A stretch of 64,000 bases of DNA from Pegoplata infirma (lineage: Eukaryota; Arthropoda; Insecta; Diptera; Anthomyiidae), in assembly GCA_963921195.1 (NCBI GenBank), contig OY992540.1:191441576-191505575 (forward strand). The letters are read 5' to 3'. The position numbers and the translations under genes are program-made. Positions 3,430-42,600 of the stretch are shown piece by piece (within the stretch, counting starts at the first letter, position 1; each line of letters begins with the position of its first letter). The notes beneath the pieces were generated by a model. It searched no databases. It was not told the DNA's origin and saw nothing but the letters and a program-made list of their open reading frames with translations.

Positions 3430-4484
3430 TTCAAAGACATCACATGTAAAAAGTCCAAGCTATAATAATAATTGTTGCCAATTTGGATGATTTTAAAATT
3501 ATATTAAAAAAAAAAAAAACATTTTGTTTAAAAACAGAATTTTTTGTTGAAAAATTTTTATTGAAAGGATTTTTAGGATTTATTTTTTTTTTGTTTTAAA
3601 AGAAGCCTTGCAATTTTTTTTTTATTTTATAATTTTTTATATATATATATGATTAATTATAACAATTAAAAAAAAAACACAGAAAAAATACACATTTTTT
3701 TTTAAAAACAAAAAAACAATAGTTTAAACTAAAAAAAATTAATATTTAAAAAAAAAATTATTTGGGATTTTTTGTTTTGATTGTTTTTTTTAGATTTTTT
3801 AAAAAACTAAAAAAAAAAATATTTATAATTATAGTAATAATAATAATAAAAGCTTAAAAAATATAAGATTAAACTACAAAAAAGTCCATAATTTTGTATA
3901 GTGTTTCTTTATAAATTTTTTGACTTAAAATTAATAATTATACACGAAAAAAATACACACAATAATAATATTTATATAAAATTACTTAAATTTTAAATAA
4001 AAAAAAATTTGTTAATTTTTTTTTAAACTTATTATCTAAACAAAATACACTTTGTATAAAAAAAATTATGTTTTTTATAAGAAAAAACAAAAAAATTATT
4101 AAAAAATATATATAAGCAAACAAAGCATTAAAAAAGGTGGGGTAACAACAAGGGGATCAAAAGGGACTACATTATCTTAAGCTGTTTTAAAAGGTTAATT
4201 AAAGGGGAGGGAAGGTATGATATTTCTAAAAAATTAATAATAATAATAATATTTATAAACAAAGTTTTCAGTCCTCAGGTAACAATGTTTCAAAAACAAC
4301 AACAGTAACAGCAGTCATAGGTAAAGAATATGAGTAAGAGATAGTGGTGTTTGGGTAAGAAAATATATTTGGAAGTGGATTATATACTCAAAGTATAAGA
4401 CTTGGCCTTAATAGTTTTTTGGAAATTTTCTAAGAAACTTGTTTCATAATATTGCTAGCAACATTTGGTAGCTTAACAAGAATT
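3430..4484. other. Hr4: AT-rich sequence downstream of Hr4, possible 3' UTR
   Basis: No gene seen. Long A and T runs plus short (TA)n and TAA repeats. If the long Hr4 C-terminus is made, its 3' UTR would lie here. Many TTTATT words (AATAAA on the minus strand) are present, so no single poly(A) site can be chosen. Confidence 0.4.
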
Positions 4485-6278
4485 TTAATCATTAGTATTG
4501 ATATCTAAATTAGAATTTGTGAAATTATTTGAAATGTTGTCAGCAACATTTTGAGCAACATTGGAAACATGTTGACATAAACTAGTATTGTTGCTAGAAT
4601 TTATCAACATGTTGCTAGCATTATTATTTGTTGCTAAAACTGAATGTTTTAAAGTTTTCAAAGGATATTGTGTGGTGTTTGTTAATGAAAGTGGTGCAGA
4701 AGATGATGATGATGCAGATGTTAATGTTTGTGTTAATATTGATGATGTTGATGAAGATGCAGTTTGTGTCAACATTTTTGTATTTGTTGACACGGCAGTC
4801 CTTAACAGCTCCGTATTAGCCGTTTGTAATGAAGATGCAGTTACTGATGTTGATGATGACGTAGATGTTGCAAAACATATCGATGAAATGGCCTTAGATG
4901 TTGCTACACTTTCTATACATCCCCCCACCGTTAATTTTGGTAAATCTTTAGCCAAATTATCTTCAGTTTGTGTTTGTGTTGTTACCAAATGTGGCTTAAC
5001 ACTGGGAATTTTTATAGTCTGTGTGGCTTGTTGTATGGCTTGCGTTTTAAAAAGAGGACTACTTAAATTACTGTTGTTGCTACTTGCTAGGGTTACATTG
5101 CTGACATTATTAGAATTTCTTAATGTTTCTGTTTCTGTTGTTGTTTTGATTATAGAAGCCGCCTGATTATTACTAGTATTACTACTACATAAAATAGTGG
5201 ATTTTATATTAGAACCTAAATAATTATTTGTTATGGTAGTGGCTGTATTTGAAGTGGCAGTATTTGCAGAGGCAGTGTTGTTTGGTGATGAAGTAACATT
5301 GGCAAAATTTAATTTTTTAAATGGTAAAGTACACATTTTTCTAGGTGGTTGGGGAACCACTAAAATATGTTGTTGTTGCTGCTGTTGTTGCAACTGTTGT
5401 TGCTGCTGTTGTTCTTGTTGAGCCGCTATTTCACTTAATGATGCCAAAGTAACTGCAGTCTTTAAAACTTGATCTGGTGTACGTACATGTAAGGATTTTG
5501 TTGATGTTGTAGCTAACAAAGGTGATGCACATGATGATGAAGATGTTGAAAATGTTGGTGCAACATTTAATGTTGCTGGACGTTTAGACATCAATGCTGT
5601 TTGTAATATTGATGTATATGTAGTAGTAGCTGATGTTGCTACCGATGTTGCTGATGATGTAGATGTTGCTATACATATATAAGGATCTCTGTGTTGTTGC
5701 TGTTGTTGCAGCGATTCCTCTTTTAATTCCTCCTCATTAGTTTGTCTATCATCTGTATATAAAAGTCTTTTGTTTTCTTCTTTAAAATATGCTAAATTTT
5801 TGGGTACTGATGCATTATAATTAACTAAGGGAGCCGAGCTACGTGCTATTTGTTCTGCTGCCGCTGTTAAAGTGGCCAAGGTATTTGCTGCTCCTGTTAG
5901 CAAAGAAGTCTTTAATATTGATGTTGGTTCCAACAACTGAGGCACTGGTTTTATATTCATCTCATCTTGTTCCATATCCATAGCTTGTTCTTCATCCTGT
6001 TCTTGATTTTCCTCCATTTGCTGATGCGGCGGCTGCTCTTCCTCTATACCCTCCATATAATCATCAAAATCATTTTCAATTTTTATCTGTGGCATTTCTA
6101 TAATGGGTAAACATTGTATTCTCTCTTCTCGGGGAGTAGAATTATCAAATATTTCTTGTTTGTTGTTAATAAGCTCTTGTTCCATTGCTAAACTTGCTTC
6201 GTTTGCTGTTGTCCGTGCTGACGTTGTATTATAAGGCGGTTGTTCGGCAATAGTTAATAGACCACGTTGAAGCATTTG
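4485..6278 (-). CDS. Hr4: Hr4 in-frame C-terminal extension beyond the TAG stop
   Basis: A 598-codon open frame begins directly after the Hr4 TAG (6279-6281): CAA, then ATG at 6273-6275, ending TAA at 4485-4487. No frame change is needed. Such a length without a stop in AT-rich DNA, together with codon-like CAA/CAG polyglutamine and S/T/N-rich runs, argues that it is translated. An acidic, glutamine-rich part comes first (residues 65-105, with the SUMO-type IKIE). Polyglutamine follows at 284-302 and serine/threonine-rich sequence after that. A motif like ILKTAL occurs at residues 120, 223, 270 and 490, and also in the Hr4 hinge. It could be reached by stop readthrough (the TAG is followed by C) or by alternative splicing. 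A separate downstream gene starting at the ATG is less likely because the frame runs straight on. Confidence 0.6.
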   Translation of the reverse strand, partial: QMLQRGLLTIAEQPPYNTTSARTTANEASLAMEQELINNKQEIFDNSTPREERIQCLPIIEMPQIKIENDFDDYMEGIEEEQPPHQQMEENQEQDEEQAMDMEQDEMNIKPVPQLLEPTSILKTSLLTGAANTLATLTAAAEQIARSSAPLVNYNASVPKNLAYFKEENKRLLYTDDRQTNEEELKEESLQQQQQHRDPYICIATSTSSATSVATSATTTYTSILQTALMSKRPATLNVAPTFSTSSSSCASPLLATTSTKSLHVRTPDQVLKTAVTLASLSEIAAQQEQQQQQQLQQQQQQQHILVVPQPPRKMCTLPFKKLNFANVTSSPNNTASANTATSNTATTITNNYLGSNIKSTILCSSNTSNNQAASIIKTTTETETLRNSNNVSNVTLASSNNSNLSSPLFKTQAIQQATQTIKIPSVKPHLVTTQTQTEDNLAKDLPKLTVGGCIESVATSKAISSICFATSTSSSTSVTASSLQTANTELLRTAVSTNTKMLTQTASSSTSSILTQTLTSASSSSSAPLSLTNTTQYPLKTLKHSVLATNNNASNMLINSSNNTSLCQHVSNVAQNVADNISNNFTNSNLDINTND

Positions 6279-6359
6279 CTACCTTATGCTGGCGGAGTTC
6301 AAAACAAAGGGAACGTAGAACATTTTACTTTCCAATAAAAGACTAGCAGCAGCTTGGAT
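6279..6359 (-). CDS. Hr4: Hr4 exon F: end of ligand-binding domain and TAG stop
   Basis: The acceptor CTCATTTCTAG ends at 6360. The exon opens in phase 0 with [11 protein letters not shown] and encodes 26 residues ending VLNSASIR, then TAG at 6279-6281. The bases around the stop read ATAAGG TAG CAA ATG. The string AAG/GTAGCA across the stop could also act as a weak splice donor, which would remove the TAG. The frame stays open for 598 codons after it. Confidence 0.9.
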   Translation of the reverse strand: MQAAASLLLESKMFYVPFVLNSASIR

Positions 6360-9300
6360 CTAGAAATGAGAGAAAGAGAGAGAGGAAGAAAAAATTATTT
6401 TTAAAGTCTGTGAAAAGTAAAAAAAAATATACTCGTAGCCACTGCTGCCAACTTGAAGATTTTCCCGCTAAATCTAGCGCTTTTTGTTTGGCATTAGCGG
6501 GAAAAAATTGGTTTTAGCGGGAAAAAATTGTTTTTAGCGGGAACGATGTTTTAGCGGGAAAATCTAGCGCTTTTTGTTTGGATTTAGCGGGGGAAAACGT
6601 ATTCCTAAAACACTTAAAATCGCTAACAATAAGTGTAAATTTCACAAACAGTAAATTTGCATGGAAAAAATAATTTGGAGGTTTTTTCTAATTTTTCTTT
6701 TTATTCCAATCAAAAACGCCAAGTTTGTCGATTTTTTCGTAATTTATTTATTTACAGTAGCAAATGTACATCAGCTTGGATATAAAATTTACAAAAGTAT
6801 TTACAAAAATATTACTTTTTATATTTTAGCGAGAGAATTTTAAATTTTCCCCGCTGATTTTTTTTGCGATTTCTAGAGGTTTTTTAGAGAAAAGTCAATT
6901 TGCGTGGAAAAAAATAAGTTTTCCCGCTAAATAATTTTTTGGCGGTTTCTAGCGCCTTTTTAGTGAAATTAAGAGCATATAGTATACATAAAGGCGAAGG
7001 TGAAAGAAAAAATACTATCACTATCTTTTTCTAATTTCTCACACGTACGTTGTCAATGTGAATTCAAAACACAACACATGTTTACAAGTCGTACTTTGTC
7101 AACAAATACATGTATACAAGTTGTACTTTGACAACTCAATTTTTGACGCCTTTGCCTATATGTATACTTTATGATTTAGAGGTTTTTGGTGAAAAATAAT
7201 TGGCAACAGTGCTTTTAGCTGTCTAAATACCACTTATCTCTTGCTGAGATACAATACAATTGTCCAAAAGAGTAGAAAAAAAATTTAGTAAAAAAATATT
7301 GAGTGAAAAAAAATTTTGAGTAAACAACTATTGAGAAAAACAAAATCATTCTATTTCGTTCCCTGTTCCATCCCATTTCGTTTCCTGGTCCATCCCATTT
7401 CGTTCCCCGTTCTTTTCTTTTGCATTCTCAATTATTTTTCATTTTGTTCCAAGTAGGTTTCATTCCTGCCCGTATAACGTTGAGAACAACAAATTGTAGA
7501 GTTTTTATCTGAATTGATATAAAAATTTTGAATTTCAAAATGTGTTTTTCTCTTACCGTTATACACCGATTTCTCTGAAACTTAAAATATATATGAGAGG
7601 TTCTTTGTCAACCGGGCCACCGCTATCTCCAAAATTGGAATGGGTTTAACATTTTTTTAAAAAAATTCGAAATTACTTACAAATATTTACTTTTCAATAT
7701 GGCGGATCCAATATGTGGCCCAATTTTTTAAAAGTATTTCAGATTCGCTTAAAACTCTTCTTACAAGGGTCGCTAAAGAAGAATCTGCATTTTGACTTCC
7801 AAAATTCAAAATGTCGGATCCAACATGGCGGATTTTTTTTTTTTAAATAACAGATTCACTTAAAACTCTTTACGCACAGGTTTGTTGGGTTGCTAAATTG
7901 GAATCTGCCATATGAAAATCTAACCTCAGATTCAGAAAAAGTTTTAACCAAATCGGTTTATAATTCTCAAATAATTTGGTCGCCATGTTGAATCCGCCAT
8001 TTTGAATTTAAAAATTCCAACTTCAGATTCTTCTTAAGTGACCACAAAAACCCGTGTATAACGAGTTTTAAGCGAATTCGTAATGTTTTTAAAAAATTGG
8101 GCGCCATATTGGATTCGCCATATTGAAATTCAAAAACCGCCACTCGGCATTGAAAAGAAAATATTTTTAAGCAATTTCGAATTATTTTAAAAACATTTAA
8201 ACCCATACCAATTTTGAAGAGAGCGGTGGCCTGGTTGACGAAGAACCCCTTACATAAAAGAGAAGATTTTAAGATTGAGGTGTGACGGCTTATCTGCCAC
8301 ATAAGTGTTTAAAAACTTCGTTGCCATCTTATGAAATAATATGGACCTTCGGAAAAGTTCCGAATGATTTGTCGGAATGATTTTTTTGCTGGAAGATTCT
8401 TCATTCCTCATTTAAAGTTTCTAGGACCATTATTTCAGGAGATAGAAAAAGTGCCAAAGCACAAATTTTTAACCTTTTTATCCCATTAAAATCAGAATTT
8501 CCAAAAGGTACTTTTTCCAGAATGGAAGATTCTACATTTAAAGTTGCTATGGTCATTATTTCAGAAAATAAAAAGCACCATAGATTATATCCCCTTTTTA
8601 ACTAAGAAAAGGAATTTTCAAAAAGTACTTTTTCCAATTTTTTTTTTCGCCGGTTGATCCTAGTAAAGTACCAAAGCACATTTTTTTACCCTCATAGAGT
8701 TGGAATTTCCAAAAACCCAGAATTAGTAGATCTATTTTCCGGAAGCTAAATCAACATTTAAAATTTCAAGTTTCTTATCATATATTGTAGCTCTTCTCTT
8801 TCATTTACTCACCTCTGGTATATGGGATAGTAATTCATTAAGGCGGGCTTGTGGATTTTGTGGTGATGAATGTTGTAAAAATGTACGCAATACTTGTATA
8901 TAACGTTCCTGTATGCTTTCCAATTCCACCTCTGCTAAATACAAAAAAAAAAAAATCGTTAATAACCAAAAACAATTCTCTCCCTCTCTCTTTCTAAAAC
9001 TTACCTTTATTCAACAATATATAGACTTTCAAACAAACATATTCTTCCATTTTTAATTTAATTCTTCTAAACATTATCGTTATCTGTGTCATTTTATCCA
9101 CCATATGACCCACATCCAATTTCAATTGTTCCATAGCTATGGGCTGGCCCATTAAAGTGGTCAGACACGTTTGCAGCGTGGTAAGATGAGCATTTACTTC
9201 GGCCACAAATTCTGGATCTTCTTTGTGTACTAAGGCAGGTTGTGTTGTTATATGAGGAGGTGATGTTGAAGAAGCATGATTATTGTTGCTATTGTGGTTG

Positions 9301-12300
9301 TGGCTGTGCTGCGTAGGAGATGAGGATGATGAAGATGCTGAAGAATTCGAAGATGTTGAACTACTGGCTGAAGTGGCAGAGTGGGAGGATGGTGTTGTAT
9401 GCCTTTTACCATGTAGAGCTTGATAAGCTGCTGTGGTTAGTATGAGAATTTCATGCCATTTATCGGTTAACAGTTTCGTATGAATTTCAACCGGTATTTC
9501 TAAGTAGAAGGGTAATTTCTTAGTCCACGACACCAATTTATGAACGATAGAGTCACCAATATTGCAAAGCTTTTCACTAATCTCGGATTTGTCTTCCAGA
9601 AATTCTGAGAAATGTGGCAATGTGGCTATATCTTCCATGGCATCACAGTCTATCAGTGTTTGTATCATGGATAGAGAATGCTCATAGGAGATCTGGCGAT
9701 CTTTTGAAGAACTAACCGCTGAATCGAGTCGGTGCCGTAGATGAACAATCTCGCTAGGATTTGTTAGAGCAGTCTTAAGAATGGTACCGTTTACCAAATG
9801 CGAGGGTATTTTCATGGCAGTCTCTTGGGGCGTCGTAGGTCTTTGTGAAGCTGCTGACTGTTGATGAGCCATATGTTGCTGAGGAGCCACTGAGGCAGCA
9901 TGATGATGTGATGTTTGCTGTTGAGGACCACCGCTAGCAACGGGACTGTGTAGAGGACCTCCAGGACCACATGCTGAGGCATGTAGAGGATGATGTGGTG
10001 ATGATAAATGCGGAGGGGGATGCTGTAGTTGTTGTTGCTGCTGTTGTTGAGGCGGCCCCAGTAGTTGTTGCGGTTGCGACGTTTGGTGATGTGGTAAATT
10101 CATTGATTGTTGTTGTTCTTTACTCAAAAACATCGGTTTCATTTCACCTAATAATTTGGTTTGTTGCTGATGTGCTGCCGCTGCCACAGCTGCAGCAAAT
10201 TGTTGCTGTTGCAATTGTTGTTGTTGCTGTTGTGGCATAAACAGATGAGCCGGATGATGATGCGGAGATAGTTGTGTCTGATGATGGCCTTGATTGTGTT
10301 GTTGTTGATGCATTGGTGAATGTTGTTGAGGCTGTTGCTGCTGCTGTTGTTGTTGTTGCTGCTGTTGTTGAGTTTGCTTACTCTTCTTGTGTTTCTTATA
10401 CTTGACCTTGTAAAGATTATAAACAGCTCCACTGTTACGACCACCGGGCATGCGATCTTCTCGAACGGCTGATAAAATAATAAGAATAAGAGAATTAAGG
10501 ATAAGTTTTAAAGATTGTATTTGTAATTCGAACATTTTAAAGACTTATAGTTTCGTATGTCGATTCGAAAGGTTTTTGGAATCAAATCGACTTACGAAAT
10601 TTTCCCCCCAGAAAAAATTGCTTACCTTGTAATACCATTCCCTGTTCAATACACTTTTTAAAACGACAATACTGACAACGGTTACGTTGAGCTTTGGTAA
10701 TCTCACAGGTGCCATCTGCCACACATGTATACACCCGTCTATTTTGCACGGTACGTTTAAAGAAACCTTTGCATCTAATCAAAAAAAAAAATCAAATATA
10801 AAATAAAACTTTTCGAAATTGATTTCCTCAAACTCCAAAAAACTTACCCTTCACAGGTTATAATACCATAATGTAAGCCAGTGGCCTTATCCTCACATAT
10901 CATACACACCAGAGGTTGATCATCCTCATCGGTAGGCTCATGAGGATTATCAAGACCTCGTCCTAAGCCTGTGGTATTAGATGATCCTCCACCACCCCAA
11001 GGTTGTTGGGCAGCACTTAAGTTGAGGGCATGTAGTTGGCCAGGCGGTAACTGAGAATAATCGCCAGCCCAGAGACGTTCCATATTCAAAGCATGAGGCG
11101 TACGAAAGGCATGTGGCGGTCTTGGCCTGTTGTCTTGTATCCGTGTTTGACCCAGTGACAATAACAATTGAGCGGCTTCTTCGTTATTTTGCGGAGAAGG
11201 CCCAGGCGTATGTGTTGGAGTCAGAGATCCGGCTGAAGGTGACGAAGAGGATGTGTTTAACGATGACTGTGACGAGTGATGCGGTTGGGATTGCAGTGAC
11301 GAAGGCGGCGCTCCTCCACCCATTTGTTGATGTGATAGATGATGTTGTTGATGGTGATGTGAATTTGGCGACTGACTGGCTGATCCCGCCGATGAAGGTG
11401 GTGCCGCCGGTTCATAACCCCAAACCATAGTACGGACACCACAACTTTCGCCCATTATCACGGTAGGAGTACCCCTAGGTGGTGTTTGCGAGGGTGTTTG
11501 TGGAGAAAGCTGTGACGTTGAGGAGGCTGATGACGAGGAGTGGTGTGGAGAGGGCGATTGTCCGGGACCACCCGGTCGTATGCTACCCATGGGTCCACCT
11601 ATAACTTCAGGTTTAACACCATTGATTCGTGCATTCGATACCCATACCATACGTTGAGCCGCCGCAGCGGCTACTGCAGCTGCTCCTGGTTGCATTAGTT
11701 GTGGCAAACCAGCAGCAGCTGCTGCTGCCGCCGCCACATGTTGCTGAACTTCATTTTTAACCCGAAACATTAAAGCCGCATCTCTATTGGGATGCCTTAA
11801 AGACTGCAAAGATGCCGGATGCATTAAAGCTTGAGCCATATTACCCAAAGCCTGGGGTGGCAATTGTGGTGGTGGTGGTCCTTGGGGAGATTGTTGTTGA
11901 TTTGGTGACTGTTGCTGCATAAAATGATGCGGAGAATGATGTCTTTGTTGAGCATTACCTCCATTACCAAAATTCGGATTATGATTTTGCATTGTAGGAG
12001 GTTCCTTTTTAATGCGTATATGTTGCCCGAGATTTTGTTGCGGTTGCATCATATGCTGTTGTGGTGATTTCGAGGCCGAATGTCTAGAACTGGGTGACAT
12101 TGAAGCACTCGGTGATAGTTCCCGCGTAGCTGGATTATTTTGCCTAGACATGGCAGCTGCTTGTTGTAGTAATTGTAGCTGTTGTTGCTGCGTTAAATGT
12201 TGCATTGACTGTGACAGTAAGTGATGATGTTGTGGTGGCAATTGCAGATCATGGGGAGGACTTTGTTTTCGTAGCTGAGGTTGTGTCAACTGCTGATGTA

Positions 12301-13612
12301 AGTGATGTGTTGTGACTATAGGTGGTCCTGGTGTAGGGTTTGAATGTTGCTGCTGAAGTTGCTGTTGTTGTTGCTGTTGATGATGCTGCTGTTGTAGCTG
12401 ATGATGATGTTGTTGTTGCTGCTGTTGTTGGGATGGTGTTGTATAATGTGTGTTAGTTAGTGAACTCTGTAATGGTGACGGCGATGAAGTTGCTATAGAA
12501 GCACTAACAGCTGTGGAATATGGCGAATGTGGTGGTTGGGGCGGTAATTGGGGTTCAGACTTAATACGAGATGGTGTTACCAAAACAGTAACATGTTGTT
12601 GAGACTGTGTGGGTGTTTTACAACCCTGTTGTTGTTGTTGTTGCTGATGTTGCAATTGTTGTTGATGCTGCTGCTGGTGGTGTTGCTGCTGCTGTTGTTG
12701 TTGTTGTTGATGATGATGATGGTAGGCCATCATACGTGTAGGAGAGCCTAATATACGTTCTTCTTTAACAGAACGTATAACACTCATATTGCTGGTTGAA
12801 TTATTATTACTATTACCACTTCCAGATCCCTGTCCTTGTCCACCCCCACCACTACTTCCACCATGAATACCATTCGCTGACATTATGGGTGAAGAAGTGG
12901 TAGTCGAGGGTTTATCATCCATTGAATCGGGTGATGCTCGACTACTACCTCCACCATTACTTGTACTACTACTGGCATTACCATTATTATGGGGCGGCGT
13001 AGGTGTAGCTCTATGACTTGAAGGTGTCCGTCGTTCATTACTATCTGCTGCCGCCATTTCAGTATTCATGGGTGGTGAAGTTCTTACTGGTGCAGGTGGT
13101 GTCATCATTGTTGAAGCGGCCGAAGAAGCTACAATACCACATGATGATGAATGGATTTCAGTCTGTTCTTGTTGTTGTTGATGATGTTGCTGCTGCATTT
13201 GTTGTTGCAATTGTTCATTTTTAACCGCAACTGCTGCTGCTACTGCTTTAGCTGTAGCAACTACTACTTCTGCAGCCACTTGATGTTGAGGTTTTTCATT
13301 CAACATCGATGTTGTTGAACATGTGGCAGGTGTTGTGGTTGTTGTTAAAGAAGTGGTAGCTGTTAGTGTTACCATTGCTGTGGAACTAGCAACATTTGTT
13401 CCTAGTACACCACCACCACCTCCCGCTCCTCCTCCCGTATCACACATTTTTGGTGACATCGGTGCTAAGAGGTCTGGTGATGAGGTTGAGGTATCTGCTA
13501 CAGATTCACCATCACTGCTGCATCTTGAATCGATTTTACGTCGTTTCAGTTTTAGATCCTGAAAAAGGCTCATTTTATCGAGCTCGCTGTAAGGGCCACG
13601 GCTCAGTGTCAT
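6279..13612 (-). CDS. Hr4: Hormone receptor 4 (DHR4, NR6A-type nuclear receptor), main form, 1526 aa
   Basis: Five joined exons (B-F) give 4578 coding bases. The DNA-binding domain has Cys 903, 906, 920 and 923 in finger one, with P-box CEGCKG. Finger two has Cys 939, 945, 955 and 958 and ends [11 protein letters not shown]. The extension [12 protein letters not shown] follows, the wording of insect Hr4. The N-terminal 900 residues are low-complexity with many Q, H, S and P runs and several psi-K-x-E sites (for example IKSE). The ligand-binding domain covers roughly residues 1215-1526. In Drosophila, Hr4 is a nuclear factor that shapes ecdysone pulses and the early metamorphic gene response. 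That role is known for the family and inferred here. The length matches my memory of about 1500 residues for the Drosophila protein. Confidence 0.95.
6440..7211. mobile_element. hAT-type non-autonomous element with CACTGyTGCCAA ends
   Basis: The left end CACTGCTGCCAA and right end TTGGCAACAGTG are inverted repeats. Flanks CTCGTAGC and CTTTTAGC match at 6 of 8 positions, consistent with an aged hAT duplication. Inside, TTAGCGGGAAAA is repeated several times near the left end, with TTTTCCCGCTAA in inverse near the right. A second element (6976-7173) is nested inside. The short frame at 6661-6843 is chance. Confidence 0.65.
6976..7173. mobile_element. Roughly 197-bp hAT-type MITE, copy 1
   Basis: Ends CATATAGTATACATAAAGG and the inverse of CATAAAGTATACATATAGG flank a core almost identical to the copy at 52541-52736 (AGGCGAAGGTGAAAG, TTTCTCACACGTACGTTG, TTTACAAGTCGTACTTTG). 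Flanks ATTAAGAG and ATTTAGAG match at 7 of 8 bases, fitting an 8-bp duplication. It is nested inside the 6440-7211 element. Confidence 0.8.
7540..8295. repeat. Foldback element in Hr4 intron E-F
   Basis: GTCAACCGGGCCACCGCT near 7607 is matched in reverse by AGCGGTGGCCTGGTTGAC near 8222. The pairing continues inward with ATATGGCGGATCCAATATG near 7699 and its counterpart near 8105. The axis is near 7920. The 111-residue minus-strand frame across it is just one arm and not a gene. Confidence 0.7.
8813..8934 (-). CDS. Hr4: Hr4 exon E (ligand-binding domain)
   Basis: It encodes [19 protein letters not shown], then LNELLSYIPE, a helix-forming part of the ligand-binding domain. The acceptor is TTTAGCAG, with two usable AGs three bases apart (after 8935 or after 8932). 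Both keep frame and differ only by one alanine. The donor GAG/GTGAGT ends the exon at 8813 in phase 0. Confidence 0.9.
9005..10468 (-). CDS. Hr4: Hr4 exon D: hinge and most of the ligand-binding domain
   Basis: The acceptor TTTTATCAG precedes 10468. The phase-1 join completes the alanine of [14 protein letters not shown], the extension of the DNA-binding domain, followed by a basic stretch ([11 protein letters not shown]). Polyglutamine and histidine-rich linker follow, then [19 protein letters not shown] (residue 1201 starts ILKTAL). The conserved ligand-domain block has [42 protein letters not shown] and [15 protein letters not shown] serine-rich insert (about 9250-9400) interrupts the domain before [15 protein letters not shown] and [15 protein letters not shown]. 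The donor AAAG/GTAAGT ends it at 9005 in phase 1. Confidence 0.95.
10626..10774 (-). CDS. Hr4: Hr4 exon C: second zinc finger
   Basis: The acceptor TTTTTTGATTAG ends at 10775. The join completes Gly 922 and gives [34 protein letters not shown] and [17 protein letters not shown]. All cysteines of the second C4 finger are present. The donor ACAAG/GTAAGC closes at 10626. The introns on both sides are short (73 and 157 bases), in contrast to the giant 5' intron. Confidence 0.95.
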
Positions 13613-24098: not shown

Positions 24099-24240
24099 AT
24101 CGTTCAACTGTTGACGAGTGTGGACGTGTTTTATTTTAACTCCGTGCTATAAATTGAATTACTAAAATTGTTCGTAATAGGTTTGTTCGTAATAGGTATT
24201 TTTGTGATATTTTCATTACCACATCAAGGAAAATGAAAAT
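24099..24240 (+). promoter_or_regulatory. Retrotransposon 5' UTR with possible internal promoter
   Basis: Fly non-LTR elements usually carry an internal promoter with a downstream element of the GGACGTG type. GGACGTG occurs at 24122-24128, about 24 bases into the element. A direct repeat GTTCGTAATAGG follows near 24170 and 24184. The assignment is by analogy only. Confidence 0.35.
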
Positions 24241-25644
24241 ATGGACACAAATGATACCGATTTAGTTCGAGGCTCTGCCTCACCGACTGGTGCTGGTCCT
24301 AGCACTGGTCTTAGGGTTGCGACCTTGAAGTCCGGCCTTGATTCTGGTAGGGGTGCTCAGCCTAATATTGGTGGTAAAAAGAAAAAGAAACTTAAGCCAT
24401 CAAAGGTCAGGCACAACCAGAGAAGGCTTTGTTTGAAAATAATTAACAGACTAAGCCAACTCGATGGAACGAAGCTCTCCGAACGTGAGAAGGCGTCGCT
24501 ATCATGGGCGAAAGGAGTCATTGAAGAACAGGACAAACTTTCGGCAATGCGCGCATCTGACAAACAGAGCGCTGTTTCGGCCTCGTCATCGAAGTCTGGT
24601 AAAAGGTTGCGCTCGCCCGACGAGAAACCTTTACCTAAAAGATCTAAGGTGACCGGCAACGTCTGGACTCAGTCTTTTAGTGAAGTGGTGAAAGGTAACT
24701 TCGTTAGGGCTGTGATAAACAGGCAAAATGGGGATTGTAGTATTCCAAGGGACAAGTGGAGTTTAGTTGAAACTAAACTAAATGAAATCTACTATAGGCT
24801 TCTTGAGAGTATGCCTGATTTTCTCCCTACTACTGTCAACGCAGGTTGGTATCAGGGGCGAGTAAAACTCGTTGCTTTTGGAAACGAAAGATCCGCAGCC
24901 GTGTTTAAGGTTGCCATTAGCCAAGTGGGAGAGTTATGGCCTGGAGCCAGACTGGACGTTGTGGAAAAACATGATATCCCCTCGCAACCCAGAGCTCATG
25001 CATGGATCCCAATGGCTACAAGTGACACTGCGGTGATTCTAAAGATGATAAAAGTCTGCAATCCTGACCTTCCAACTCAGAATTGGCAAATTGCCAGATT
25101 GGGTGAGATGGAGGGCGCTCGTCGTCAAGCAGTGGTCTTGGTTAATGAGGAATCGCTTCCGCTTTTAGCCAGGACTGACGGCATTATTAGATTTGGCTTT
25201 TTTCATATAAGAGTCAATGTCTACAAGGGCGACCAGAAGCCTATTTTGGAAGCAGACAAGCCAGTGGCAGAGTCGGCTGGGGAGGAGAATCTGGAAAAGG
25301 TTGATATTCAGCTGACCGATTCTAGGCTGATGGGAGATGCATCTGGCATTTTCGAAACCGAATCTGGCAACGAATGCGACCTCTGTGATGGCACGGAGGA
25401 TAAAGCTGATGCCACTATGGGTGACATTCAGGACGAGGCCCATGCAGTGAGGAATTCGGAGAGTTCTGTTGCCTCCGATTCAGAACAGATGGGACACATA
25501 TCTGGCTTATTCGAAACCGAATCTGGGGACGAATGCGACCTCTATGATAACACGGAGGATGAAGCCAATAACACGGTGGTGGAAAGGATGGTGGAAAAAA
25601 AGCAAGATGTTGCGGTTCCTACAAATAAACCTCCATCACTGTAA
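24241..25644 (+). CDS. Retrotransposon ORF1 protein (DUF4780-like), 467 aa
   Basis: This is the nucleic-acid-binding, chaperone-like first protein of a non-LTR element, expected to package the element RNA. The N-terminus is basic (KKKKKLKPSKVRHNQRR). The middle (about residues 130-330) with WYQGRVKLVAFGNERSA, LWPGARLDVVE and NWQIARLGEMEG fits, from memory, the DUF4780 domain seen in insect ORF1 proteins. I see no CCHC zinc knuckles. The acidic tail repeats SGIFETESGNECDLCDGTED, and again SGLFETESGDECDLYDNTED, an internal duplication of about 60 residues. The stop overlaps the start of ORF2. The ATG follows GAAAAT, an AT-rich context usual in flies. Confidence 0.88.
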   Translation: MDTNDTDLVRGSASPTGAGPSTGLRVATLKSGLDSGRGAQPNIGGKKKKKLKPSKVRHNQRRLCLKIINRLSQLDGTKLSEREKASLSWAKGVIEEQDKLSAMRASDKQSAVSASSSKSGKRLRSPDEKPLPKRSKVTGNVWTQSFSEVVKGNFVRAVINRQNGDCSIPRDKWSLVETKLNEIYYRLLESMPDFLPTTVNAGWYQGRVKLVAFGNERSAAVFKVAISQVGELWPGARLDVVEKHDIPSQPRAHAWIPMATSDTAVILKMIKVCNPDLPTQNWQIARLGEMEGARRQAVVLVNEESLPLLARTDGIIRFGFFHIRVNVYKGDQKPILEADKPVAESAGEENLEKVDIQLTDSRLMGDASGIFETESGNECDLCDGTEDKADATMGDIQDEAHAVRNSESSVASDSEQMGHISGLFETESGDECDLYDNTEDEANNTVVERMVEKKQDVAVPTNKPPSL

Positions 25645-28600
25645 GGCAGCCTCAGCTGCACTATTGCTGCGCCTGACGACAGGAGCAGTTGACTTGGTTT
25701 TTATCCAAGAGCCCTGGGTGCGGGGTGGCAGGGTTTGCGGATTGAAGACCCCTGGGTTTAAGTTGATGGTTGCCAAAGGTGAGGGCTCACCAAGAGCCTG
25801 CATCTTGGCGAAAAATGGCTTAAATATATTCTTTTTATCAACTTTTAGTGATATGGATGTTACAGCGGCTAGCTTAGAGCTTCATGGGAAATCTATTTGG
25901 CTCGCCTCTGCGTATTTTCCTAATCCGGGGCCAATACCCCCGGAGAAGGTTGGCGGTCTGATTCGGGAGTCTGAATCTAGGGGACACCAGTTACTAGTGT
26001 GCTGTGATGCTAATGCACATCATTCGATATGGGGTAGTACAGACACAAATGATAGAGGCGAATCACTTTTGGAGTTTTTGTTAAGCACTAACCTGTATAT
26101 TTGTAACAAGGGTAGTGAACCAACTTTCGTTACAAGTACGCGGCAAGAGGTTCTTGACGTAACACTTGTATCAGATACATTGTCTGATAGAATTGATGAC
26201 TGGAGAGTTTTGGAAGAGCATTCTTTCTCAGATCATCGGTACATTGAGTTTTTACTCAGGGAGCGTGCCCCGGTTGAGACAGTCTCTAGAAATCTGAGAA
26301 GAACAAACTGGGTGAAATATAGGGAGACTTTTTCTTTGCTTTTGGATGAAGTACCCCTATCTGAACCGCATAGTTTAGCGGAAATTGACTGTCTGGTTGA
26401 CCATATAACAAATGTTTGTAATAGGTGCCTGGATGCGTCTTTCCCTTCTGCAAAGCCTAGAGGGAAAAAAAAGCCACCTTGGTGGTCAAATGAGTTGCAG
26501 ACGAGCAGAGATTCCTGCAGAAAGCTCTTTAATAAGGCTAAATTTTCAAGAGCGGACGAGGACTGGTCTGCATACAGGCTGCAACTTAAGAGTTATAAAA
26601 AGATGATCAGAAATGCCAAATGTGATTCTTGGAAAAACTTCTGTGGAAACATAGAAGACGTTTCTGAGGCATCCAGGCTGCGCAAGGTTCTGGCTTCTTC
26701 TCCTTGCACCCTAGGATACCTGAAAGATCCTAATGGGGTGTGGTCTTCCTCCAGTGGAGAGTCGCTGGATCTCCTTTTAAACACGCATTTTCCGGGCAAT
26801 TCCATGACGCCGTTTCAAGCTTTGGAACGTTCTGACGCCCAAGCATCTGAAATTGCTTCGGAAATAATAAATATGCCAACATTAATCTGGGCGATAAAAA
26901 GCTTCAGGCCCTATAAATCTCCGGGACCTGATGGTATAATCCCGGCTGAGTTGCAGCAAGTGTTGGACTTTATAGCCCCGTTGCTGTATAATCTATACAC
27001 AGCATGCATCAACTGGTCGTATATTCCTTTAAAATGGAGGGATACCAGAGTCGTATTTATCCCGAAGGCTGGGAAAAGTTCCCACACAGCTCCGAAGGAT
27101 TTCAGACCAATTAGTCTGTCTTCTTTTTTGTTAAAGACAATGGAACGAATGATAGACTCATATTTGCGTAGAGTGATTGACCCGAGGTTGCTTTCGACAA
27201 AGCAACATGCATACAGCAAGGGACGATCAACGGAAACAGCTCTTCATGAGCTCGTTGGTACCATCGAGAGATCGCTTTCGGTAAAGGAGTACACTATGGT
27301 GGCCTTTCTTGATATTGAGGGGGCTTTTAATAATGTCATTCCAGAATCGATAATATTGGCATTGTCTGGTCTGGGAGTAAAGCGTGAAATCGTTTTAATG
27401 GTGGAAAACCTACTTGCCAATAGACGTATAACGTCTGAATTGGGAGCGTCCGTCATATCTCGATTTGTCAATAGGGGCACACCACAAGGAGGTGTTCTTT
27501 CGCCGCTTCTTTGGAACCTGGCACTGAATTCAATGCTACTATCTCTAGAAGCACGTGGTTGTCATGTTATCGCATATGCTGACGATGTCGCGATAGCGGT
27601 AAAGGGGAAGCATCTGCCAACATTGCGGGACATTCTTCAGGGTTCTCTGAAAGATCTGTCTAAATGGGCAAGAGACTGTGGCCTAGGAGTTAATCCTAGT
27701 AAAACAGAGCTTGTTTTGTTTACAAGGAAAAATAAGATTCCTGCTTTTGATCCTATTTCTCTGGACGGTACTGAAATCACCTTCTCAGATGGAGCCAAGT
27801 ATCTTGGAGTATTTCTAGATAGGAAGCTGAATTTCAGGCGTAATATTGAGGAACGGGTGAGAAAAGCAACGATTGCTTTGTATTCCTGTAAAAGGGCCAT
27901 TGGAAAACGATGGGGTTTTAGCCCTCAAGTCGTTCATTGGATCTATACAGCAGTGGTGCGTCCAATTTTGCTGTATGGAATCATTGTCTGGTGGCCTGCT
28001 TTGGAAACAAAAGCGAACTTTGTCTTTATCACGAAGGTACAGAGAATGGCGTCAATGTGCATCACTGGTGCTCTTCGTACTACACCTACGGCTGCATTAG
28101 AAATCCTCCTTCACCTGATACCCTTGGACATATTGGGTAGGCAGTATGCGGCTGCATCGGCAATTCGACTCAATAGCACGCTGCAATGGAGGAGCAGTGA
28201 TTGTGGCCATAGCGCAATCTTGAAAAAGATAACAATACCACAAAATGTGGACTGTGCTCCCTCTTTGAGCCTCTTTGAGTGCCACTTTACCACTATGATA
28301 CCATCCAGGGAGTCTTGGATGGGGGATACTCCGGGTAGTGGAGCTACCATAAATTTTTACACAGATGGATCGAGGCTGCACGAACAAGTGGGCTTTGGAG
28401 TCTATTCGGAAGAGCTTGGGTTGAGCCTGGCTCGTAGATTGCCAGATCATTGCAGTGTTTACCAGGCAGAGATGCTGGCAATAAAAGAAGTGGCTGACTG
28501 GTTGAGCTGCAATGTCTTGTCTACAACCGCAGTCAACATCTATACTGACAGTCAAGCCGCGGTCAAGTCCCTGGATTCAATGTTTCTGAAAACAAGATCT

Positions 28601-29200
28601 GCCCTTAACTGCCGCACGTCTTTAAATGAGATGGCCAAGCAGTTTAACATACGACTCATATGGGTCCCAGGGCACAGAGACATTCCAGGGAATTGCAAAG
28701 CCGATGAGCTTGCAAGACTAGGAACTACCTTACAGGTTCCAACAGAATTGGAATGTGTTGGTACGCCTCTAGAAACTTGCAAGCAAAACCTACGGCTTTG
28801 TTCTGCGACGGAGACTAATCAAAGATGGGCAAATGGATGGACGTGTGAGACAACACGACTGATTTGGCCTTCTCTTAATCAGGGGCGCACAAGTGAGCTG
28901 ATATCGCTTCCAAGAGGAGAGATTTCAACGGTGGTTTCTATAATTACCGGACACTGTCTTATAGGGAAGCACGCAGAGCGGTTAAATGTGCCGTCGAATG
29001 ACTTTTGCCGAAGTTGCATGGATGAAGAGGAGTTGGAAACTATCGAACACTTTATTTGCCATTGCCCGGCACTTTCTGGTCAGCGACTTGCTTCACTGGG
29101 ATCTAGGGAGCTGTACGATCTTTCAGATTTGTCGGATGTCAAAATTCAACATCTAAGGAGTTTCATAAGAAGCTCAAACTGGTTTAACGACAGGGACTAG
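25607..29200 (+). CDS. Retrotransposon ORF2: endonuclease, reverse transcriptase, RNase H (about 1197 aa)
   Basis: The start is placed at the ATG of MLRFLQINLHHCK, where the APE endonuclease begins. An in-frame ATG at 25469 would add 46 residues lying in ORF1 overlap. Endonuclease: FIQEPW, CCDANAHHSIWGS and SFSDHRYI. Reverse transcriptase: SFRPYKSPGPDGI, DFRPISLSSFLLK, STETALHELV, GTPQGGVLSPLLWN and the catalytic IAYADDVAI near 27575. RNase H: FYTDGSR, YQAEMLAI, IYTDSQAA and WVPGHRDIPGN, with its D/E/D residues. A C-terminal CRSCMDEEELETIEHFICHC Cys/His motif follows. It overlaps ORF1 by 38 bases in the +1 frame, so translation probably uses reinitiation or frameshifting. No stop or frameshift is visible, so it may be competent. 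Confidence 0.93.
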   Translation: MLRFLQINLHHCKAASAALLLRLTTGAVDLVFIQEPWVRGGRVCGLKTPGFKLMVAKGEGSPRACILAKNGLNIFFLSTFSDMDVTAASLELHGKSIWLASAYFPNPGPIPPEKVGGLIRESESRGHQLLVCCDANAHHSIWGSTDTNDRGESLLEFLLSTNLYICNKGSEPTFVTSTRQEVLDVTLVSDTLSDRIDDWRVLEEHSFSDHRYIEFLLRERAPVETVSRNLRRTNWVKYRETFSLLLDEVPLSEPHSLAEIDCLVDHITNVCNRCLDASFPSAKPRGKKKPPWWSNELQTSRDSCRKLFNKAKFSRADEDWSAYRLQLKSYKKMIRNAKCDSWKNFCGNIEDVSEASRLRKVLASSPCTLGYLKDPNGVWSSSSGESLDLLLNTHFPGNSMTPFQALERSDAQASEIASEIINMPTLIWAIKSFRPYKSPGPDGIIPAELQQVLDFIAPLLYNLYTACINWSYIPLKWRDTRVVFIPKAGKSSHTAPKDFRPISLSSFLLKTMERMIDSYLRRVIDPRLLSTKQHAYSKGRSTETALHELVGTIERSLSVKEYTMVAFLDIEGAFNNVIPESIILALSGLGVKREIVLMVENLLANRRITSELGASVISRFVNRGTPQGGVLSPLLWNLALNSMLLSLEARGCHVIAYADDVAIAVKGKHLPTLRDILQGSLKDLSKWARDCGLGVNPSKTELVLFTRKNKIPAFDPISLDGTEITFSDGAKYLGVFLDRKLNFRRNIEERVRKATIALYSCKRAIGKRWGFSPQVVHWIYTAVVRPILLYGIIVWWPALETKANFVFITKVQRMASMCITGALRTTPTAALEILLHLIPLDILGRQYAAASAIRLNSTLQWRSSDCGHSAILKKITIPQNVDCAPSLSLFECHFTTMIPSRESWMGDTPGSGATINFYTDGSRLHEQVGFGVYSEELGLSLARRLPDHCSVYQAEMLAIKEVADWLSCNVLSTTAVNIYTDSQAAVKSLDSMFLKTRSALNCRTSLNEMAKQFNIRLIWVPGHRDIPGNCKADELARLGTTLQVPTELECVGTPLETCKQNLRLCSATETNQRWANGWTCETTRLIWPSLNQGRTSELISLPRGEISTVVSIITGHCLIGKHAERLNVPSNDFCRSCMDEEELETIEHFICHCPALSGQRLASLGSRELYDLSDLSDVKIQHLRSFIRSSNWFNDRD

Positions 29201-39030: not shown

Positions 39031-39684
39031 ATTTTTTTATACCAAAATTGTCACGTTCACAACAATTTTTCCTAAAGAAAATTTCTCTTCATAATAAGAA
39101 CTCCTAGATCGACAGATTTTTTTTTATTTTTTTTTCAGATTTAGTGACATTTTTTCCTTTAAAAATTTTCAGATATTCCCAATAAATTTTTTTTTAGATT
39201 TTTCCCTTAAAATGTTTAGATTTTTTTCTACGAAAAATTTTCGGATTTCAAAATTTTTTTTCTTTGGAAATTTTATAAAAAGTTTATTTTTTTCTTTTTC
39301 GTTTCTTTCTTTTTTTTCTTTTTCTTTTTTTATTAATTTTGTCTGGGGGGGGGGATTTCCCTTCCCCCTCCTTGTGCCAGCGCATACCTGTTATCACAGT
39401 CAAAATTATTGCAACCTTTTTTATTTTTGTATATTTTTCATTGCCAACTTTGAAAAAAGCACATTTTGTATAACAAAATGTTGCTTCGGTTTATTAACGT
39501 GTAATTCAATTAAAAAGTCAATGCTGAATAAAAACGACATGTCGCGACATTTAAAAAAAGAAAACCTGCTAACTACAAGTCACATTTTGTGTAGCAACAT
39601 TTTGTCTTGGTCTGTTATTCAAGCTAAACAGAAATATTAAAAAATAAAATCGTTTTACAATAAAAACTACTAAAAAAAAAAATC
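39031..39684. other. T-rich stretch with no supported feature
   Basis: Long T runs and a G9 run near 39345. The 142-codon frame 39212-39640 is dominated by F/S codons from poly-T and is not credible. Confidence 0.5.
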
Positions 39685-39685
39685 A

Positions 39686-42600
39686 GCAACATGTTGCTTG
39701 AGTTTATAGAAATGTTGCTTTGTAAAATATGCTACTGCGGAATTTTGCAAAATGTGCAATGAGAAATTTTAAGAAATTTTATGTAATCTCATGAAATTTA
39801 GAAAAAATATTTGTATAATTATTTTAGCAACATGTTGCTGAGTTATTAAAATACATTTTTTCATAAAAATCGTCGTTTAAATCACAGTTAAACAAAAAAA
39901 ATACCAATAGACTTTGTTCCGACACTTGCTGCTTGAGTATAAAAACATGTTGCTAAAAAAAATTGTTCAGCAACATGTTGCTTGAGTTTATAGAAATGTT
40001 GCTTTGTAAAATATGCTACTGCGGAAATTTAGCAAAATCTCGTAAAATTTAGAAAAAATATTTGACTAATTATTTTAGCAACATGTTGCTTTGCTATAAA
40101 AACACATTCTTTCAGACAAAAATCGTCGTTAAAATCACAGATAAACTAAAAAAATACCAATAGATTTTGTTCAGCAACATGTTGCTTGATTATATAAACA
40201 TGTTGCTCTAAGTCAAAGTTTGTGTAGAAATTCGGGAAACATGTCCTCAAACCAAGAAAAACTTCTAATTGAATTTGTTCAGTAACATGTTGCATTGGTT
40301 TATAAACATGTTGCTCTATTAAATGAGGTAATGCTGAATTTTCTTAAAATATTAAATCTAAAGAAATTTAAAGAAATTTCATTAAATTAAAAAAATAAAA
40401 ATGTGTATAATGATTTTAGCAACATTTTACTTTCATGTTGCTGCTCTGAAAAAGTTTTTCTAAACTTAAAAAAAAAAAAATCTTAAAAACTATAAAATTA
40501 TAATAATAAACACAATTTACCTATAGATGTCATAATTTTGATGTAAGTGTATAACGGTGTTGCTAATGTTGGGATAGTTGGTAAAAATAGAATTTTCAAA
40601 ATTTTGTAAATTGATATAAAAAAAATTCAAGACATCTAAACCAAAAATCATAATTTGAACAGGAAACCAGGTAAAAAGCCAATTATTTTAAAAGGAGTAG
40701 GATAAATCATGTTTTTGTCGGGGGAAGTACAGATGTTTTTTTTTTGTTTAAAGATGATTACTTGTTAAAGCCAATTTTGGATTATAAAACATTTTTGAAG
40801 AAGTTTTTGTTTAAGCCAATATTTGGAAGATTTTAATAATTTGGAAGATAATTTTTTTTAAAGTTTTTTGTATAATTTTGTATATTTTTTTAAAATAATT
40901 TTGGCACTTTGTTGTTTTATAATTTAGGTAAATTGCGTTTTTTTTGAGATCTAGAAATTTATAAGAAATATTAATTTTTTATTGAAATATAAATACTAAC
41001 GACATATTGATGGTTTTAAACGCGCTGCCTTTTTACGATAATAACAATTGTAATTGTTATAATGTATATTATTATTGTTATTGCATTTTGTACATTTTAT
41101 TGTTGCATTAGACAAAGTTGTTGTTGGCGCTGATGTTGTTGGTATGGGTATTTTTGTAAAATGATCAAAAACTTCACCAGATTCTGTAGAATCATTTTGA
41201 TTTTCCGTTTCATTTGAATCTTGACTATTCGAACAGCAACATATTGTTGCTGGCAAAGTATTTATATTACCATTACCATTTGGTGTACATTTCTTTAAAA
41301 GAGTTTTATTTAGGGGTGTCTTAATTATACAAGCTGTACTTAAGTTAATATCTTCTTCTTCGTCATCCTCATCCTCATTTAGGTCTTCAACGTTAGAAAT
41401 TTCTTTTTGTTCTTTTTTCTCTTCTTTATCGTTTTCATGTTTTTGCTGATGTTTTATATGACCTCCATTGGTTTCTTTAGGGTCTTTAGTATAATGTTGA
41501 CCATTTTGTTTTATTGCCGTTGTTGTGGCTGGTAAAGGCGAAGAAGGTGCTGGTAGAGGTGGTGTTGTTGGAGGAGGAGGGGAAGTAGGTGTTGATTTTT
41601 CCAATTGTTCTTTTTTGATTTTATTAAAAATATCATTATTATTTTTTAAATCACAAGAATTTTCAATTGTAGATTTTGTTGTTGATATATTATTAAGATT
41701 AAGGCTTGAAGTGTTGCTGTTGGTATTATTGGTATTGCTGGTGTTATTTGTTGATTTTGTTAATTCAATGGCCGTTAAGTGTTGTTGCTGTTCCACACTC
41801 ATTTGGAATTAGGGTGGTTATTTAAAGTTTTTTAAAAGTTTATTTTTTTATTTTTTTTCACCGCAACATGTTGCTAAAAATTATTAAGCAACATGTTGCT
41901 TAATGGTTAGATGGGTATATTTTTTAATGCTGAGTGACCTTTTTTTTAATTTTTTAAAGTTTTTTTTTTAAATTTTATTATATTTTTTTTATAGCAACAT
42001 GTTGCTAAACTTTGTTGGGCAACATGTTGCTTTACTGTTGGATGATTTTGTTTTAATTATTTTATAATGCTGTGTATGTTTTTATTTAATTTGTATATAG
42101 TGTTTGTTTAGCAACTTGTTGCTAGAAATTATTGCCTTTTATGGTCTATGAGAAATGTAACTTTTAATTTAAACACTTTTGCTGGTAGAGTAATCTTAAA
42201 AAAAAATAATTTTATTTTTTTTTTAAATATAAATTATAAATTTCTTATATTTGTTTAAAACAAGTTGCTGGCATTTGTTTTCTTTATGTATTTAAATGAA
42301 ACATGCTGTTTGAGTTTGAAATCGTTTTATTTTTATAATTGCTATTCATTATTTAATGTTTTTGTAATTTTAATAGATTTTGTTGTTATTTTTGAAAATT
42401 ATAGATTTTCATTATGTTGCTAGATTTTTTGTTATTGCAAGTAAATGTTGCTGGATAATGTTTTTTATAAACTTATCAATATTTTTGTTACTTTTGATTT
42501 ATTTTAGTTTTTGTAAATTATTTTTTAAACCGTTAAATTTTTATGATTGTTTTCAGCAACAAGTTGTCTGTGATATATTTTTGTGCTGGTTTGTATTAAT

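Follow-up and report, generated by a model that had tools for sequence, protein, structure and literature searches.

Readthrough of stop codons is annotated for 328 Drosophila genes in FlyBase, whose curators describe the long readthrough extensions as conserved islands amid low-complexity spacers (PMC4528330). In dfr/vvl, a regulator of ecdysone synthesis, a UAG followed by C is read as glutamine, with a readthrough rate reported to reach as much as 50 percent in some tissues and stages (PMC8417969). Here we describe the Hr4 locus of the fly Pegoplata infirma, in a stretch of 64,000 nucleotides (hereafter the window) where a long frame stays open behind the Hr4 stop codon.

In the literature searched, we found no statement that Hr4 (DHR4, CG16902) is a readthrough gene. 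Hr4 is not mentioned in the main texts of PMC3840789, PMC4528330, PMC5100048, PMC4999894, and PMC8417969. No statement of Hr4 readthrough was found in PMC8863297, DHR4 occurs in PMC7244557 as a reference title, and the readthrough treated in PMC5788525 concerns another gene.

Results

Hr4 is followed by a long in-frame extension

The first open reading frame encodes an Hr4 / NR6A nuclear receptor, with Pfam matches to the C4 zinc finger (PF00105) and the ligand-binding domain (PF00104). Joining exons at GT-AG borders produced a gene model of 1526 codons ending in a TAG at 6281-6279; with the in-frame run to the following TAA, it comprises 2125 codons, both stops included.

10848..13612 (-), Hr4 coding exon 1: ATG at 13612, N-terminal domain and start of the DNA-binding domain; zf-C4 match; donor GTAAGT
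10626..10774 (-), Hr4 coding exon 2: remainder of the DNA-binding domain, from the spliced gene model
9005..10468 (-), Hr4 coding exon 3: hinge and first portion of the ligand-binding domain; Hormone_recep match
8813..8934 (-), Hr4 coding exon 4, from the spliced gene model
6279..6359 (-), canonical Hr4 end: 81 nt of exon 5, acceptor through TAG (6281-6279)
4485..6278 (-), in-frame extension: 597 sense codons to the TAA at 4487-4485, defined by the stop-to-stop frame and by homolog matches

The original prediction, made from the letters of the window, held that the Hr4 frame ends in TAG at 6279-6281 and then stays open to a TAA at 4485, and both the letters and the spliced model agree. The 598-codon frame that it reported is open and in frame, with the correction that 597 are sense codons and the count of 598 includes the TAA. 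The C that it placed directly after the stop is present (AGG TAG CAA ATG CTT), and the extension is acidic and rich in Q and S/T as described (S 12.7, T 13.6, and Q 8.9 percent; net charge -14). The flanking DNA closes frames fast, as it had also noted, with a longest run of 113 on both strands of intron 4 and the flank 4484-2600.

Across the extension DNA, each of the other five frames contains 14 to 70 stops. Codon usage in the extension is Hr4-like, scoring +0.38 bits per codon, whereas none of the other five frames exceeds 0.013; the 3' flank scores -0.85 to -0.98 bits per codon. At fourfold sites, GC content is 0.18 in the extension versus 0.306 in Hr4, and this lower value is in keeping with the coding signal of readthrough regions, which has been reported to be intermediate (PMC5100048). 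The extension has a single match in the 1.38 Gb assembly (813 contigs), at 100 percent over 597 residues, and its homolog from Calliphora vicina also matches the assembly only at this site.

An antisense frame of 196 aa (4576-5166, +) lies inside the extension and has no Pfam match; its openness probably follows from the codon composition of the sense frame. Elsewhere in the window, two overlapping frames at 24208-29200 (+) are both open, one of 478 aa with DUF4780 and one of 1249 aa with endonuclease, reverse transcriptase, and RNase H. This element is a non-LTR retrotransposon, presumably of the Jockey/I type. Open frames at 40999-41808 (-), 270 aa, and 39098-39637 (+), 180 aa, have no Pfam match at E 0.01.

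Searching with the Hr4 ligand-binding region returned 106 related proteins, many carrying the name hormone receptor 4, from the 7,978 candidates with the most shared words, in a length range of about 839-2670 aa; the set takes in a few weak or differently named members and no Drosophila among the listed names. A KMFYVPF-type end is present in 97 of the 106, and 93 of these 97 terminate 6 to 10 residues further on. Four proteins extend past it by 16 (P0108), 17 (P0104), 20 (P0099), and 78 (P0112) residues of unrelated sequence, and in nine the KMFYVPF-type end is absent as listed. Searches with five tail-block patterns found the tail in none of these 106 proteins, among whose listed names there is no Drosophila.

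The extension has homologs that share its frame

Searching 5.8 billion proteins with the extension, with the 7,984 candidates sharing the most words scored and proteins of limited length covered, identified four homologs. A second search with the conserved blocks only, also over proteins of limited length, returned the same four among 3,388 candidates.

P0001, 568 aa: Calliphora vicina, "mucin-5AC-like", the sole named homolog; 62 percent identical to the extension over aligned residues
P0002, 590 aa: nameless homolog of the extension
P0003, 582 aa: nameless homolog of the extension
P0004, 826 aa: nameless homolog of the extension

Identity of the homologs to the extension reaches down to 35%, and pairwise identities in the alignment of the five tails range from 33 to 69 percent. 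This alignment has 400 gap-free columns, 111 of them invariant, with seven invariant runs of at least five residues: MLQRGLLT, PQLLE, SILKTSLLTGAA, TLATLTAAAEQIA, SILQTALMS, LKTAVTLA, and TLPFKKLNFAN. Two of these runs lie at the following positions.

6252..6275 (-), MLQRGLLT: invariant in 5/5, starting one codon past the stop (TAG CAA ATG)
5298..5330 (-), TLPFKKLNFAN: invariant in 5/5, a run without a hinge-like motif

Conservation sets in one codon after the TAG, and MLQRGLLT is the N-terminus of all four homologs as listed. When the four homologs were compared by tblastn with positions 6359-3600, all listed matches fell in the extension frame, except that the final 13 to 33 residues matched in a downstream frame that we call the tail frame. 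The original prediction had named missing frame conservation in relatives as one result that would refute it; conservation was found at the protein level, with four homologs in the extension frame. Among viral contigs, 165 pattern matches yielded no relative. The invariant islands lie amid low-complexity spacers and so match the FlyBase curators' picture of long readthrough extensions. We conclude that the sequence comparisons support the extension as a genuine conserved protein-coding sequence.

The conserved C-terminus of the homologs lies outside the frame

All four homologs end in VTVVVFETL(L/I)P(E/D)(D/N). The corresponding peptide in Pegoplata infirma is found behind the end of the extension.

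4268..4315 (-), TAVTVVVFETLLPED-TGA: C-terminus of the homologs (4/4), here past the TAA, in a different frame that opens only at 4387

This TAVTVVVFETLLPED peptide sits 170 nt behind the TAA, and all four relatives match there. Between the TAA and 4387 the tail frame holds two stops. We also looked for a donor that would connect the extension, by way of an intron, with the tail frame at 4386. Of the GT sites between 4900 and the TAA, those in the presumed phase (4876, 4582, and 4576) read GTT or GTC, and none is convincing. With its conserved C-terminus out of frame here, the gene would have either an unseen or unusual intron or an end lost by frameshift, in the lineage or in the assembly. 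The run to the TAA is in frame, but the extended product is not simply the receptor of about 2124 residues proposed in the original prediction, because the conserved C-terminal peptide of the homologs falls outside that frame.

The tail carries short peptides resembling the receptor hinge

A structure model of the tail has a mean pLDDT of 38, which we read as disorder. Three helices are modelled, at residues 120-146, 224-230, and 269-297, each starting at or at most 2 residues from ILKTSL, ILQTAL, or VLKTAV; given this mean pLDDT, they are only weak hints. These peptides resemble one in the hinge of Hr4 itself.

9765..9782 (-), Hr4 hinge peptide ILKTAL, residue 1201, in G-x-I-L-K-x-A-L-T
5901..5918 (-), hinge-like copy 1, ILKTSL, within SILKTSLLTGAA...TLATLTAAAEQIA; helix weakly predicted
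5592..5609 (-), hinge-like copy 2, ILQTAL, within SILQTALMS; helix weakly predicted
5451..5468 (-), hinge-like copy 3, VLKTAV (ILKTAV in P0004), around the invariant LKTAVTLA; helix weakly predicted
4791..4808 (-), hinge-like copy 4, LLRTAV, in the window, P0001, and P0002, absent from P0003 and P0004
6075..6086 (-), IKIE, a SUMO-like psi-K-x-E motif, invariant in 5/5

In the Hr4 hinge, the columns G, I, L, A, L, and T are invariant in 35 of 35 chosen aligned Hr4-type proteins, from insects to chelicerates; we know of no role assigned to this peptide, G-x-ILK-x-ALT. The pattern [ILVM]-L-[KRQ]-T-[AS]-[LVIM] occurs in 4, 4, 4, 3, and 3 copies in the five tails versus 0.008-0.016 in shuffles (for the extension, 4 observed versus 0.01 expected over 5,000 shuffles, with a pattern picked post hoc). 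It occurs once in canonical Hr4, in the hinge, and is present in 77 of the 106 Hr4-type proteins; 14 of the other 29 have a close variant (e.g. ILKAALTNP), and 15 have no match to the helper pattern. A narrower, tail-derived pattern has one match in canonical Hr4 versus 0.0014 expected. Because these patterns were chosen after seeing the sequences, their enrichment figures are overstated.

Two further comparisons gave null results. The looser pattern L-[KRQ]-T-[AS] was not significant in canonical Hr4, with 0.19 of shuffles reaching the observed count. Comparing 10-mers of canonical Hr4 and the tail (BLOSUM62, low-complexity windows excluded, 100 shuffles) gave a best score of 29, which is not significant, since the shuffles averaged 29.1 and peaked at 40; hinge windows scored at most 23. 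This unbiased test being null, it is the motif that carries the hinge-tail link. On these sequence resemblances, we consider it quite probable that the hinge peptide and the tail copies are linked.

The meaning of IKIE as a SUMO-like site is our assumption from the motif. TQT clusters, which we take to be an LC8-like motif, were enriched relative to shuffles in the extension of the window (5, fraction 0.0015) and in P0003 (5, 0.008); they were not enriched in P0001, P0002, and P0004, and we leave them out of the argument.

The tail contains conserved short peptides, three to four of them resembling the hinge peptide ILKTAL of the receptor, plus a SUMO-like site, and the tails of the relatives additionally end in the hydrophobic-acidic C-terminus. 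The tail starts roughly 13 residues after helix 11 ends, close to the position that helix 12 takes in other receptors. From this position the tail might alter the binding of co-regulators, or its copies might compete with the receptor's hinge peptide for the partner of the hinge.

Stop-codon readthrough and alternative routes to the tail

Several features used to recognize readthrough in insects are found at this stop: the leaky context TAG C, as with UAG-C in dfr; an in-frame open run directly behind the stop; and, at the protein level, coding constraint starting at the stop. That all four homologs as listed, which are known as protein only, begin at the post-stop Met fits a stop at that place. 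No stable RNA structure was found behind the stop (folding z +0.60; longer piece z +0.89).

3621..3626 (-), first AATAAA downstream of the Hr4 TAG, past the extension and the tail

Five ATTAAA hexamers lie between 5916 and 4489, within the extension. Judged by the first AATAAA, which comes only at 3626, Hr4 and the extension likely share one mRNA.

We lean toward readthrough of TAG-C as the best explanation for how the tail is reached; from the sequence we infer the shared mRNA, the use of readthrough, and the residue inserted. The Hr4 mRNA would bear a second coding block right after the TAG, and some ribosomes would decode the UAG (followed by CAA) as an amino acid, probably glutamine by analogy with dfr, and continue in frame. 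One product would be the usual receptor of 1526 residues, and the other would add to it some 600 residues of a mostly disordered, acidic tail rich in S, T, and Q. Programmed readthrough of the Hr4 stop, as originally predicted, is supported in part: a conserved coding frame runs from the stop at the protein level, but readthrough itself is what we infer, with a second cistron as its competitor.

Such a second cistron, which we regard as unlikely, would yield a separate protein from the AUG one codon past the Hr4 stop, by termination-reinitiation on the Hr4 mRNA or from a shorter transcript starting in intron 4. The post-stop Met is invariant, all four homologs as listed start exactly there, and the listing for Calliphora vicina presents its homolog as a separate protein, mucin-5AC-like; a gene finder, however, would presumably print a first-Met start for a readthrough region too. 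Reinitiation after a frame of 1526 codons is rare in animals, which speaks against that route. The AUG at 6275, with CAA before it, has C at -3, and another AUG at 6323, preceded by AAA, comes 48 nt upstream, so scanning to the AUG at 6275 is disfavored. A published rule that separates readthrough from a second cistron requires non-coding sequence between the stop and a conserved ATG (PMC5100048), and with a single codon between the two here, it cannot choose.

The remaining alternatives fare worse. Splicing and editing both look weak as routes to the tail. The AG of the TAG could serve as an alternative acceptor, so that exon 4 would run straight into CAAATG and the tail would take the place of the stop and the 26 residues before it; as exon 5 measures 81 nt from its acceptor (6359) through the TAG (last base 6279), such a junction would be in phase. 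Yet the upstream pyrimidine fraction is 0.53 versus 0.80-0.93 at the four Hr4 acceptors, two nearer AGs intervene versus none at the Hr4 acceptors, and the receptor would lose the conserved end of its ligand-binding domain, all of which makes this very unlikely. We think A-to-I editing of UAG to UGG highly improbable: UAG is a favorable neighborhood for ADAR, but no stable duplex was found near the stop in two local stretches folded, and the C after the stop would be left without a role. A coding ancestry conserved in relatives could also be decaying in Pegoplata infirma, its end lost by frameshift; the C-terminal peptide is out of frame behind the TAA, two more stops precede the opening at 4387, and there is no good intron donor. 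Against such decay, which we judge only slightly less improbable than the alternative splicing, the 597 codons are stop-free with their conserved blocks intact, the stranded C-terminal peptide is itself unchanged, and an intron in Pegoplata infirma would explain the displaced end equally. Finally, CAA/ACA-rich low-complexity DNA has few stops, and the antisense frame of 196 aa is open as well, as a chance open frame would allow. In 1,000 dinucleotide shuffles, however, taking the best of three frames each time, maximal open runs had a mean of 84 codons and never passed 205, far below 597, and conservation in four relatives refutes a chance frame, leaving it a vanishingly small probability.

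Discussion

If readthrough of the Hr4 stop yields a longer receptor, studies of the short form may capture only part of Hr4 biology. We take the gene models CG16902 and CG42527 to have been merged as Hr4. The name 'Hr4/CG42527 (FBgn0264562)' is printed in PMC5550008, and it is our guess that CG42527 corresponds to the Hr4 tail; Drosophila Hr4 may already be annotated as extended. Were CG42527 the tail, an extended annotation would exist in Drosophila, and what is new here would be that the tail is conserved in calyptrates, that it carries hinge-like copies, and that its C-terminus is displaced. The published Hr4 transgene consists of a full-length synthetic cDNA of 6.3 kb (PMC3181225).

Readthrough of Hr4, if true, would bring dfr and Hr4, both regulators of ecdysone synthesis, under the same kind of translational control. 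One could further imagine that UAG readthrough in ecdysone-making cells, as for dfr, fixes how much long Hr4 is made relative to short, and that this balance acts as a translational switch in steroid timing; the tail, at the place of helix 12 and with its hinge copies competing within or between molecules for the partner of the hinge, would weaken the repressor or change its co-regulator. We offer this as speculation and hold it to be quite unlikely. The hinge-like repeats offer a sharp means of testing a motif that hardly varies among arthropod Hr4 proteins.

Compared with known systems, Hr4 resembles the NR6A / GCNF receptors in its DNA-binding domain, where the solved NR6A1 (5krb) matches the Hr4 alignment; we know of no comparable tail in NR6A1. 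The readthrough form of the human vitamin D receptor, VDRx, is like Hr4 in being a nuclear receptor with a largely disordered extension right behind the ligand-binding domain, but it has UGA-CUAG, 67 residues, and weak conservation, whereas Hr4 has UAG-CAA, 597 codons, and blocks kept across flies (PMC5868278). The likeness to Drosophila dfr/vvl extends to the stop, a UAG followed by C, and to the kind of gene, a transcription factor in ecdysone control (in the prothoracic gland); the dfr extension of 286 aa is also long, with amino-acid repeats and predicted disorder except at its C-terminal end (PMC8417969). In contrast to Hr4, dfr is an intronless POU factor, a predicted stem-loop is mentioned for it where we found none behind the Hr4 stop, and its readthrough was shown by peptides, antibodies, and tagged constructs (PMC8417969). 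Readthrough extensions in FlyBase range from 4 to >1000 aa, and the longer ones, of low complexity with conserved islands, resemble the Hr4 tail (PMC4528330). A further likeness is to Caps/Trn (PMC4528330), where a readthrough tail resembles sequence known from the unextended part of a related protein; in Hr4, three to four copies of the tail peptide instead echo a motif in the hinge of the receptor itself.
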